Shown here: piece after piece, positions 19,891 through 63,231 of the stretch
Position numbering within the stretch: position 1 is the first letter of the stretch
Layout: each line of letters starts with the position of its first letter
IMG/VR virus record: IMGVR_UViG_3300043446_003177
Coordinates: 62,001 to 126,000 of that record
Length of the DNA stretch: 64,000 nucleotides
Reading direction: 5' to 3' (one strand)
From: a virus
Translations under genes and position numbers: made by a program
The notes under the pieces: model-generated
Seen by the model: only the letters and a program-made list of their open reading frames with translations
Database searches by the model: none
Told to the model about the DNA's origin: nothing

Positions 19891-20050
19891 TTACTATGCT
19901 TCACTTGGAAAGTATGAACTTGGTGAGAGAGAAGACTCCGAATCAGAACATAAGTGGAGACTGATCTCTGATATTATGGAATTCATTGATGGTATGGAAA
20001 TCAGGGAAGAAATCAATCAAAATAAGGTTAATACATTAAAAATCATTTAA
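19835..20050 (+). CDS. small helical hypothetical protein
   Basis: 71 residues from ATG 19835; GTG/TTG-type starts further upstream to 19811 are possible. Overlaps the previous gene by 56 nt. Acidic-basic helices (YKQ-type start MKQDNKYNQLKAYLSLKYD). Last gene before the non-coding palindrome region. Confidence 0.5.
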   Translation: MKQDNKYNQLKAYLSLKYDYYASLGKYELGEREDSESEHKWRLISDIMEFIDGMEIREEINQNKVNTLKII

Positions 20051-20087: not shown

Positions 20088-20140
20088 TTCTCAATAAGCA
20101 TGAAATAGTTGAGAATCAATAAGGTTACGTTGTTGAGAAT
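20088..20140 (+). repeat. TTGAGAA repeats at left flank of the palindrome region
   Basis: TTCTCAA at 20088-20094 and TTGAGAA at 20109-20115 form an inverted pair; a third TTGAGAAT lies at 20133-20140. The same motif forms the perfect dyad at 20895-20924 on the other side of the palindrome array. Confidence 0.6.
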
Positions 20141-20192: not shown

Positions 20193-20275
20193 CCTTGTGA
20201 TCTTAGCGTGCTTTCTATCACAAGAACCGAAAAAAGTCAAGCCCCCGCGAAAAAAGTTCCCAGACCCACACAAAA

Positions 20276-20645
20276 TCTCGACGAGACTTGACGCCAGAAT
20301 CTAGTCGAGATATAATACACACAAGGCATCATAAATCTAGTCGAGATATCCTGCAATAATCTCGTCGAGACCTCATGCATCATTATATCAAGCATTCATA
20401 AATCTCGACGAGATATGCAACAAATCTCGACGAGACTACACAACATTCGTCATCATAATACATCACAAATCTCGACGAGATACACTGCAAATCTCGTACA
20501 TCTCGTGCATATTATACACATAATCTCGACGAGAATGTGCATGAATCTCGTGTGCATTTCGTGACGAATCTCGATGCATATGCATATATACTTTCATATG
20601 CACGTCTCGATACATATGTACGGTTGACACGTGATCTCGTGCATG
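20276..20645 (+). repeat. clustered 11-bp palindromes (TCTCGACGAGA family) in a non-coding region
   Basis: The stretch 20051-20685 has no supported gene. It holds eight full 11-bp near-palindromes: TCTCGACGAGA at 20276, 20403, 20425, 20470 and 20524; TCTCGTCGAGA at 20360; TCTAGTCGAGA at 20300 and 20336. Half sites (TCTCG) continue near 20492, 20501, 20545, 20569, 20604 and 20634, often followed by TGCAT. Centre spacing is irregular, 22 to 54 nt. The spacers are AT-rich. This suits multiple binding sites for a dimeric DNA-binding protein, at a promoter region or replication origin. Confidence 0.9.
20288..20316 (+). promoter_or_regulatory. near-consensus sigma70 promoter overlapping palindromes
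   Basis: TTGACG at 20288-20293 and TATAAT at 20311-20316 are 17 nt apart. One palindrome (20276-20286) ends just before the -35 box and another (20300-20310) fills the spacer. No ORF follows closely, so the transcript would run through the array. Binding at the palindromes would be expected to block it. Confidence 0.6.
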
Positions 20646-20685: not shown

Positions 20686-20847
20686 ATGGCTTACATGCAA
20701 AAGCAGAAGTACAGGATTACACTGGAAATGGATGTACTAGAAGACTTTAATCCTCATCAGATTGATTGGACAGAATTATTTGATCTTGGTGGAGATGAGA
20801 ATGTTACCGCTTATATTGAAGACCTGAGTAGAGATCGAGTCTGGTAA
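20686..20847 (+). CDS. small conserved cyanophage protein
   Basis: 53 residues from ATG 20686; the upstream ATG 20653 lies at the end of the promoter and is unlikely. KYRITLEMDVLEDFNPHQID and DENVTAYIEDLSRDRVW match small cyanophage hypotheticals (from memory). It has a strong dedicated promoter in the palindrome region, so early strong expression is likely. Function unknown. Confidence 0.7.
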   Translation: MAYMQKQKYRITLEMDVLEDFNPHQIDWTELFDLGGDENVTAYIEDLSRDRVW

Positions 20848-20894
20848 TTATACCACAAATTCACCAGATCTGAGGAGATTTATAAAATCTTAAT

Positions 20895-20924
20895 ATTCTC
20901 AATAAGACCTTCGTTATTGAGAAT
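20895..20924 (+). repeat. perfect 11-bp inverted repeat
   Basis: ATTCTCAATAA (20895-20905) and TTATTGAGAAT (20914-20924) are exact complements around an 8-nt loop. It lies 47 nt after a gene and before the next promoter. No T-run follows on the + strand, so this is either a weak terminator or an operator. It shares TTGAGAA with the left flank of the palindrome array. Confidence 0.75.
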
Positions 20925-20955
20925 GAGGACAGTTGGGGAACTGGCACAGTACTAG

Positions 20956-26775: not shown

Positions 26776-26952
26776 ATGATCCTCTCCCAAGCATCCCGCC
26801 TCACCGATCGCCAGACCGTGTGGGTTGCCCGCAGGAATGACGACACCCCCTTCTACAAACTGACCACCGACTATGGGGTGCCCGCCACCGTATGGGCAGC
26901 GCAGTTCGCTGAGGTGTGCGCCGCCGACGTGCAACCGATTCAATGGGGGTGA
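26776..26952 (+). CDS. cassette 10 small protein, paralog of cassette 9
   Basis: 58 residues (MILSQASRLTDRQTVWVARR ... AADVQPIQWG). It shares RQTVWV and a following strand-turn-helix layout with cassette 9. Leader CTCAAGTCAACCGACCCGACCG. TTGACC at 26724 may be a -35 box, but the spacer is 15 nt. Function unknown. Confidence 0.6.
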   Translation: MILSQASRLTDRQTVWVARRNDDTPFYKLTTDYGVPATVWAAQFAEVCAADVQPIQWG

Positions 26953-26988
26953 CCCCCCACCTGCTACAATACTCTCAACCCAATCGCC

Positions 26989-27003
26989 CCGTGTCGATCA
27001 CGG
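26989..27003 (+). promoter_or_regulatory. leader hairpin CCGTG-TCGAT-CACGG
   Basis: A perfect stem, extendable to 6 bp (CCCGTG/CACGGG), 8 nt before ATG 27012. It matches the hairpin at 23858-23872 except for the last loop base. It lies just after the TACAAT -10 box (26965-26970), so it should be at the 5' end of the transcript. Confidence 0.5.
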
Positions 27004-27011
27004 GTCACCCT

Positions 27012-27230
27012 ATGTCCCCCGTCCGCATCAAAGACGCCCGCCGTACCCTTGACCGCTTGGGTATGGTCTGCCGTGAGGGTGCTAAGCATCGCATCTACAC
27101 TCACCCAACCCGCCCCGATCTTCGGATGACTCTGCCCCATCGCGGTTCGGGTGGGCGTCCTACGCTGTCCGTTGGTCTGTCGTCCTCATTTCATAAGTTC
27201 GTGGCGGCAGTGGAAGCGGTTCGTTCGTGA
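27012..27230 (+). CDS. cassette 11, HicA/YcfA-like protein
   Basis: 72 residues from ATG 27012. DARRTLDRLGMVCREGAKHR, IYTHPTRPDLRMTLPH and the final helix resemble HicA: helix, strand with G-x-K/S-H, strand, strand ending P-H, helix. HicA toxins cut mRNA and are usually paired with a HicB antitoxin; none follows here. The HicA-type histidine is His26. A host mRNA degradation or RNA-binding role is inferred. The leader hairpin may control it. Confidence 0.6.
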   Translation: MSPVRIKDARRTLDRLGMVCREGAKHRIYTHPTRPDLRMTLPHRGSGGRPTLSVGLSSSFHKFVAAVEAVRS

Positions 27231-61587: not shown

Positions 61588-63231
61588 ATGAGTGAAGTCT
61601 ATCTTGGTAATCCAAATCTTAAAAAAGCAAATACCCAAATTGAATTTACAGAAGATCAAATTATTGAATTCTTAAAATGTAAAGAAGATCCGGTTTACTT
61701 TGCAAAAAATTATGTAAAGATTGTAACTCTTGATTATGGTCTACAACCATTTAAACCATATCATTTCCAAGAGAAGTTAATTAATAATTTCCATAAGAAC
61801 AGATTTAATATCTGTAAGATGCCTCGACAGACAGGTAAATCCACTACAGTAGTGTCTTTCCTGCTCCACTATGCCGTCTTTAACGATAATGTTAACATAG
61901 GTATCCTAGCAAACAAAGCAGCGACCGCACGGGAGCTCCTGGATAGGTTACAGACTGCATATGAAAACCTACCCAAGTGGATGCAGCAAGGAATTATAGC
62001 TTGGAACAGAGGATCTCTTGAACTTGAAAATGGGTCAAAAATATTAGCGGCATCCACCTCTGCTTCCACAGTTCGTGGTATGTCTTTTAATATTATTTTC
62101 TTGGACGAATTTGCATTCGTCCCAAATCATATTGCCGACGATTTTTTTAGTTCGGTATATCCAACAATTTCTTCAGGTAAGTCCACAAAGGTTATAATCG
62201 TTTCAACTCCAAAGGGGATGAATCATTTTTACCGAATGTGGCATGATGCTGAAAGGGGTAAAAATGAATATGTATTTACCGACGTTCACTGGAGCGAAGT
62301 TCCAGGAAGAGATGAAAAGTGGAAAGAGCAGACAATTGCAAACACATCAGAACAGCAATTCAAAGTTGAGTTTGAATGTGAATTTTTAGGATCAGTAGAT
62401 ACTCTGATTGCGCCAAGCAAAATAAGAAATTTAGTATATGATCACCCAAGAAAAAGAAACGCAGGATTGGATGTTTATATAGATCCGCAAGAAAATCACG
62501 ATTATATTATTACAGTTGATGTTGCAAGAGGAGTTGGAAGTGATTACTCAGCTTTTGTAGTTGTGGATATAACACAGTTTCCACATAAGGTAGTTGCAAA
62601 ATACAGGAATAATGAAATCAAACCTATGCTATTTCCGAGTATCATTCACGAAGTAGCAAAGAGTTATAATAATGCTTATATTTTATGCGAAGTTAATGAT
62701 GTTGGAGATCAAGTTGCTAGTATTATCCAATATGATTTGGAATATAATAATTTACTCATGTGTTCTATGAGAGGAAGAGCCGGTCAAATTGTCGGACAAG
62801 GATTTTCTGGAAAGAAAACTCAACTCGGAGTTAAGATGTCCAAGACTGTTAAAAAGGTTGGATGCCTTAATTTAAAGACAATGATTGAGGAAGATAAGTT
62901 ACTCTTCAACGACTATGAAATTATAAGCGAACTAACAACATTCATTCAAAAACATAATTCCTTTGAAGCGGAAGAAGGATGTAATGATGATTTGGCGATG
63001 TGCCTGGTCATTTATGCTTGGTTAGTTGCTCAAGATTATTTTAAAGAATTAACTGATCAAGACGTTAGAAAAAGATTATACGAGGAGCAAAAAAATCAAA
63101 TAGAACAAGATATGTCTCCGTTTGGATTTATTATTGATGGTACAGAAGCCGATAGTTTTATAGATGCTGATGGAGACAGATGGTTTGCTGACGAATATGG
63201 AGATAGATCTTACATGTGGGAATATAGGTAA
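61588..63231 (+). CDS. 17: large terminase subunit gp17
   Basis: 547 residues (T4: 610). Walker A is RQTGKST (80-86), Walker B with the catalytic Glu is NIIFLDEFAF (168-177), and VSTPKG is the coupling motif. The nuclease half shows ITVDVARGVGSDYSAF (about 307-322), CEVNDVGDQ (about 369-377) and a late NDDLAMCLVIYAW with the acidic residues of the RNase H-like site. The protein powers DNA translocation into the prohead and cuts the concatemer. No intron or intein is visible. Confidence 0.97.
   Translation: MSEVYLGNPNLKKANTQIEFTEDQIIEFLKCKEDPVYFAKNYVKIVTLDYGLQPFKPYHFQEKLINNFHKNRFNICKMPRQTGKSTTVVSFLLHYAVFNDNVNIGILANKAATARELLDRLQTAYENLPKWMQQGIIAWNRGSLELENGSKILAASTSASTVRGMSFNIIFLDEFAFVPNHIADDFFSSVYPTISSGKSTKVIIVSTPKGMNHFYRMWHDAERGKNEYVFTDVHWSEVPGRDEKWKEQTIANTSEQQFKVEFECEFLGSVDTLIAPSKIRNLVYDHPRKRNAGLDVYIDPQENHDYIITVDVARGVGSDYSAFVVVDITQFPHKVVAKYRNNEIKPMLFPSIIHEVAKSYNNAYILCEVNDVGDQVASIIQYDLEYNNLLMCSMRGRAGQIVGQGFSGKKTQLGVKMSKTVKKVGCLNLKTMIEEDKLLFNDYEIISELTTFIQKHNSFEAEEGCNDDLAMCLVIYAWLVAQDYFKELTDQDVRKRLYEEQKNQIEQDMSPFGFIIDGTEADSFIDADGDRWFADEYGDRSYMWEYR

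Follow-up and report, generated by a model that had tools for sequence, protein, structure and literature searches.

We analysed a 64,000-nucleotide stretch of viral DNA (the window), corresponding to positions 62,001 to 126,000 of IMG/VR record IMGVR_UViG_3300043446_003177. The source genome is a near-complete T4-like cyanophage genome of 172 kb. The window contains a dense array of 11-bp palindromes ahead of a small conserved gene, and arrays of the same motif recur at the same position in many related phages. We propose, with a probability of roughly 0.65, that a group of T4-like cyanophages uses such arrays as multi-site operators of early promoters, through which a predicted dimeric phage protein, probably a repressor, would shut off early transcription.

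The array motif is TCTMG-W-CKAGA. All eight full palindromes listed by the first-pass annotation were found at the positions it gave, within 259 bp (20276-20534 of the window; Table 1), and no further site exists outside this segment in the whole 172,232-base genome. The sites are therefore confined to the array and not evenly spread through the genome. Genomes simulated with a first-order Markov model held 0.5 sites on average and never more than 2, against 8 observed, in agreement with the earlier claim that the clustering is not due to chance. When up to two mismatches were allowed, 31 matches were counted in the window versus 10.1 ± 3.4 in shuffled sequences. Start-to-start distances between the palindromes are, in order, 24, 36, 24, 43, 22, 45 and 54 bp. 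The intergenic gap around them measures 635 nt, as had been noted, between an open reading frame (ORF) ending at 20050 and the next ATG at 20686. Palindromic copies clustered at a single locus are one feature expected of an operator, and the window array displays it.

Table 1 Features of the palindrome array and of its surroundings (window coordinates)
Feature	Position	Strand	Sequence or evidence	Remark
Palindrome 1	20276..20286		TCTCGACGAGA	Adjoins the P1 -35 box on its upstream side
Palindrome 2	20300..20310		TCTAGTCGAGA	Within the P1 spacer
Palindrome 3	20336..20346		TCTAGTCGAGA	
Palindrome 4	20360..20370		TCTCGTCGAGA	
Palindrome 5	20403..20413		TCTCGACGAGA	
Palindrome 6	20425..20435		TCTCGACGAGA	
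Palindrome 7	20470..20480		TCTCGACGAGA	
Palindrome 8	20524..20534		TCTCGACGAGA	
Half-site zone	20491..20639		ATCTCG	Copies at 20491, 20500, 20545, 20568, 20634
Promoter P1	20288..20316	+	TTGACG-N17-TATAAT	Sequence and promoter scan
Promoter P2	20624..20652	+	TTGACA-N17-TATTAT	Half site ATCTCG in spacer
Upstream element	20194..20224		CTTGTGATCTTAGCGTGCTTTCTATCACAAG	Variants kept in array-bearing and array-less phages
53-aa conserved protein	20686..20847	+	PHROG 12516	Function unknown
Candidate regulator, 215 aa	12491..13138	+	PF04014, E 1.4e-4, just under cut-off	C-terminal MazE-like domain
Candidate regulator, 81 aa	21397..21642	+	Helix-turn-helix-like fold	Predicted helix-turn-helix protein

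Analysis of the promoters indicated that the palindromes are coupled to them. Palindrome 2 lies wholly in the 3' part of the P1 spacer and touches the -10 box; the six palindromes that follow are downstream of P1 and are succeeded by half sites as far as 20634. P2 is located about 34 nt ahead of the ATG at 20686, a position that matches the promoter of array-less relatives. The promoters associated with the arrays of the isolates P-SSM2 and S-SRM01 read TTGACA-aTCTCGACTAGAtctgg-TATAAT and TTGCAT-CTCGACGAGCATTATGC-TATAAT, respectively. Promoter-like pairs with at most two mismatches were then counted on the coding strand of 101 non-redundant arrays (492 sites). A pair was found exactly 6 nt ahead of a palindrome, which then abuts the -35 box, in 17 cases, and 28 nt ahead in 11 cases, compared with a mean of 0.76 at each of the other offsets. 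The offset in the window is 12, so that the palindrome touches the -10 instead of the -35 box. Sites overlapping promoter elements, a second feature expected of an operator, are thus present both at P1 and in the exact-offset cases. Distances between sites peaked at 22-24, 31-33, 39-43, 62-65 and 72-74 bp. This spacing approximates whole helical turns and would fit binding on a single face of the helix; the 22-24 bp peak departs slightly from two turns, and no sharp maximum at 10.5 emerged from a simple measure of periodicity.

In IMG/VR, a scan for paired palindromes identified at least 119 viral stretches with arrays of this motif. Gene neighbourhood was examined for 115 arrays, and promoter statistics were drawn from 101 non-redundant ones. 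The array-bearing relatives are viruses of marine and freshwater cyanobacteria, and both Prochlorococcus and Synechococcus phages carry the motif. Among isolates, arrays were found in P-SSM2, S-SRM01, S-SKS1 and S-T4; P-SSM5, which the motif scan did not cover, matches the P-SSM2 array by BLAST only. No motif cluster was detected in 19 other cyanomyoviruses scanned. Because the spacers diverge, BLAST searches with the array DNA matched few records. The paired pattern was found in 54 stretches among 84,980 bacterial and archaeal genomes (GTDB), mostly as single pairs, and none was titled cyanobacterial, which indicates that the motif is a trait of the phages and not of their hosts. Three contigs filed under bacterial metagenome-assembled genomes (L139, L143 and L190), with two paired sites each, are possibly viral.

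The arrays occupy one syntenic site, ahead of the gene for the approximately 53-aa PHROG 12516 protein with its sigma-70 promoter; a gene of this type is found near 97 of the 115 arrays. Recurrence at the same place in relatives, which the first-pass annotation had made a test of its own proposal, was therefore observed. Each genome has one to three arrays, all in the early small-gene region, S-SRM01 harbouring three within 5.5 kb of it. In the array-less phages S-SM2, Bellamy, SynMITS9220M01 and S-SCSM1, the same gene stands behind a bare promoter preceded by a variant of the upstream element. Relative to these phages, the array occupies the stretch that separates the upstream element from the promoter of this gene. 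In most relatives, at about 80 of 101 array loci (for instance L126, L127 and L128), a short ORF runs across the array, translating the motif as Leu-Asp-Glu and ending in a conserved LAYRHYA-like tail; it is absent from the window. As for gene content, a comparison of ten genomes gave 56 conserved long ORFs; the source genome (G000) has 53 of them, and the three absent pieces are all psbA, a gene apparently missing from this phage. The literature search revealed no printing of the motif in a phage context and no account of such arrays, many subscription papers lying outside the search so that a prior description is possible; the S-SRM01 genome paper mentions neither palindromes nor promoters.

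We hypothesize that a dimeric DNA-binding protein, most likely encoded by the phage, binds the TCTMG-W-CKAGA palindromes and the CGAGAT half sites. Bound dimers would contact their neighbours across approximately whole helical turns, providing cooperativity, and would lie over the spacer, the -35 region and the start site of promoters recognised by the host sigma-70. The early small-gene operon would then be repressed once enough of the binder has accumulated. Judged from the sequences, the array very probably acts as an operator at the DNA level; its binder is probably phage-encoded, and repression, held with a little less assurance, appears a likelier outcome than activation. Several observations weigh against this proposal. 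The shifted-site control was only moderate, a palindrome falling in the spacer in 28 of 101 arrays versus 16.4 ± 3.0, with a maximum of 24 in 200. A strict promoter lies over a palindrome in only 20 of 101 arrays, and the arrays used for the promoter statistics have common ancestry. The majority of sites lie downstream of the promoter, leaving a roadblock, a buffer or another role possible. The small MazE-like protein that is a candidate binder of the array in other phages (see below) is acidic and absent from the window phage, in which a profile search gave a chance-level match only; its association with arrays is also confounded by common lineage.

The first-pass annotation had proposed cooperative binding by a dimeric protein to a multi-site operator, a replication origin or a partition or packaging landmark. 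The operator part of this proposal is consistent with the data because palindromes are found in spacers or abutting -35 and -10 boxes, are spaced by about whole turns and recur at the same position. Partition or packaging landmarks and origins are unsupported: a genome may carry as many as three arrays, always in the early small-gene region, most of the cyanomyoviruses tested carry no array, and the GC skew shows no turn. Repeated palindromes in an AT-rich gap do look like the iterons bound by an initiator, but the arrays sit at promoters of different small genes and are lacking from the 19 cyanomyoviruses. The cumulative GC skew, which had been suggested as a check, does not turn at the array, and no initiator was seen; the single locus per replicon, initiator gene and skew or replication signal of an iteron origin were thus not found, making this explanation very improbable. 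The same degree of doubt applies to an RNA-level leader in which the palindromes form hairpins in the transcript. Folding of the leader is more stable than that of shuffled sequences (z -6.5) because the palindromes pair with each other, a tendency to be expected of any palindrome set, but the stem of a lone palindrome cannot exceed 4 bp, closed by a 3-nt loop. One-sided variants (TCTAG with CGAGA 39, mirror 28) outnumber the paired TCTAG/CTAGA (12), sites within spacers and upstream of the -35 box are untranscribed from that promoter, and no Rfam family scored above threshold. On the coding strand the central base is more often A (314) than T (176); this bias was set aside as RNA-level evidence, as the short ORF reading the motif as Leu-Asp-Glu probably explains it.

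An activator array, in which the bound regulator recruits RNA polymerase to the early promoters, is unlikely. Multi-site, roughly helically phased arrays beside promoters suit activators too, but the sites here favour the 17-18 bp spacer and the start site, and a dimer bound there should block the polymerase. The promoters are moreover close to consensus and would need little help, and a bare promoter serves the same gene in relatives that lack the array. We give still less credence to the exploitation of a host regulator's binding site by the phages. This would account for the motif being common to Prochlorococcus and Synechococcus phages, and no phage binder is pinned down in the window phage; against it, no cyanobacterial-titled contig among the 84,980 genomes has paired sites, WH7803 is also host to several phages that lack the array, and the motif differs between close relatives. 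Recombination or cassette-shuffling repeats comparable to the promoter-stem-loop cassettes of T4-type phages, which are cited in work on S-PM2 (PMC4503421), would agree with the variable small-gene region in which the arrays lie. This is the least likely explanation: the arrays hold one syntenic site with a short palindrome and phased spacing, and no terminator stem-loop unit repeats with each promoter.

To return to the proposed operator, candidates for its binder were identified in array-bearing phages. A small protein of 56-63 aa with a MazE/AbrB fold is encoded at 41 array loci, 1.5-7 kb downstream of the array and never upstream. Its profile found a match in all four complete array-bearing isolates and, at E below 1e-15, in none of the 19 array-less isolates; distant relatives exist in S-CAM7 (5.6e-14) and S-PM2 (6e-9). 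Fifteen loci have this gene together with 5 kb or more of sequence upstream of it; 11 of them have palindrome arrays and three more have half-site arrays (L358, L365 and L371). PF04014 was matched by 13 of 24 family members (E down to 9.7e-5), and the best Foldseek matches of a structural model (pLDDT 80) were MazE, SpoVT and AbrB, with weak E values of 0.2-1.3 and probabilities up to 0.99. By both profile and fold, the small protein thus matches the MazE/AbrB swapped-hairpin family. Lys3 is invariant and other N-terminal residues are nearly so, the remainder being acidic. In phages possessing this protein we tentatively predict that it binds the array, an assignment somewhat less probable than its alternatives taken together. 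A relation between motif variation and clades of the MazE-like protein (p 0.016) was post hoc and involved a duplicate genome, and was not used. Comparing gene presence and absence in 5 array-bearing and 6 array-less genomes identified no DNA-binding protein common to all array phages including the window phage. Two candidate regulators are encoded in the window (Table 1). The 215-aa protein is also found in some array-less phages; relatives of the 81-aa protein occur, among the sequences examined, only just downstream of arrays (L057, L104, L341/L342). Both are listed as candidates, and neither is claimed as the binder.

The motif itself changes between close relatives. Two relatives found via the downstream gene (L335 and L342) have the same motif as the window, and L326/L328 have TCTAGACTAGA and TCTCTACTAGAT at the same locus. 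A quite different repeat, made of TTCGTATA, ATTCGTG and many TTCGT repeats, is present in L336-L340, where the palindrome TCTTATCGTATAAGA flanks a TTGACA-N17-TATAAT promoter some 500 bp ahead of the PHROG 12516-type gene; these repeats appear to be a second type of operator occupying this locus. L331-L334 keep the locus and have no repeated motif. By analogy, this turnover at the same promoter resembles the operators of different immunity groups and would hint at self/non-self discrimination among lytic phages. It is conceivable, if doubtful, that lytic T4-like cyanophages fall into immunity-like operator groups. Each group would have its own repeated motif at this early promoter, together with a small regulator to match; the regulator would turn off early genes and might silence a superinfecting phage belonging to that group.

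Other repeats were observed around the array. Inverted repeats TTCTCAATAA / TTATTGAGAA at 20088-20140 and 20893-20925 flank the unit formed by the array and its gene. A second intergenic family, TCTGAGAACTGG(C/T)(A/C)CA followed by a run of C or G, lies between small genes at 20938, 21312, 21630, 22056 and 22661. Between 24655 and 26991, where the GC content is 52-62% within a 37% GC genome, there are six promoter-like intergenic repeats (24-38 nt, around CTACAATACTCTCAA), each preceding a small ORF and possibly imported as a block. An ORF in this GC-rich block (26916-27230) is HicA toxin-like by eye (LGMVCREGAKHRIYTHPTRPDLRMTLP).

Few marine viruses are as abundant as the cyanomyoviruses, and the presence of the array at an early promoter of the cultured phages P-SSM2, S-SKS1 and S-T4 makes the operator idea directly testable in isolates. 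Operators of the lambda OR/OL type are clustered palindromic sites of one dimeric protein over sigma-70 early promoters. The arrays similarly place several close palindromic sites over such promoters. They differ from OR/OL in number and layout, with 3-9 sites of 11 bp that extend over as much as about 300 bp and lie downstream of the promoter for the most part, and they belong to lytic T4-like phages without known lysogeny, whereas lambda is temperate. The stoperators of mycobacteriophages L5 and Bxb1 likewise consist of one short repressor site repeated many times within a phage genome; they are asymmetric and scattered genome-wide, whereas the array sites are palindromic and limited to one to three promoter arrays. 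The KorA/KorB operators of plasmid RK2 also consist of short palindromes, with half sites nearly touching, and mediate repression, also at a distance; their mechanism is the subject of a recent study (PMC11790492). The array sites differ from them in being clustered and in sequence, and no ParB/KorB relative turned up, no profile search having been aimed at them. The small array-tracking protein of other phages resembles the MazE/AbrB/SpoVT swapped-hairpin regulators through PF04014 and its fold, and departs from typical members in being acidic, besides its absence from the window phage. Finally, the array would serve the same step as MotA/AsiA, Alt and Mod of T4, that of ending or redirecting early transcription; those proteins act on the polymerase, whereas control here would be exerted through a DNA operator. 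How cyanomyoviruses accomplish this step is recorded as unknown, and because they lack homologues of motA, asi, alt and mod (PMC2984593), an operator of the kind proposed here would fill that recorded gap.
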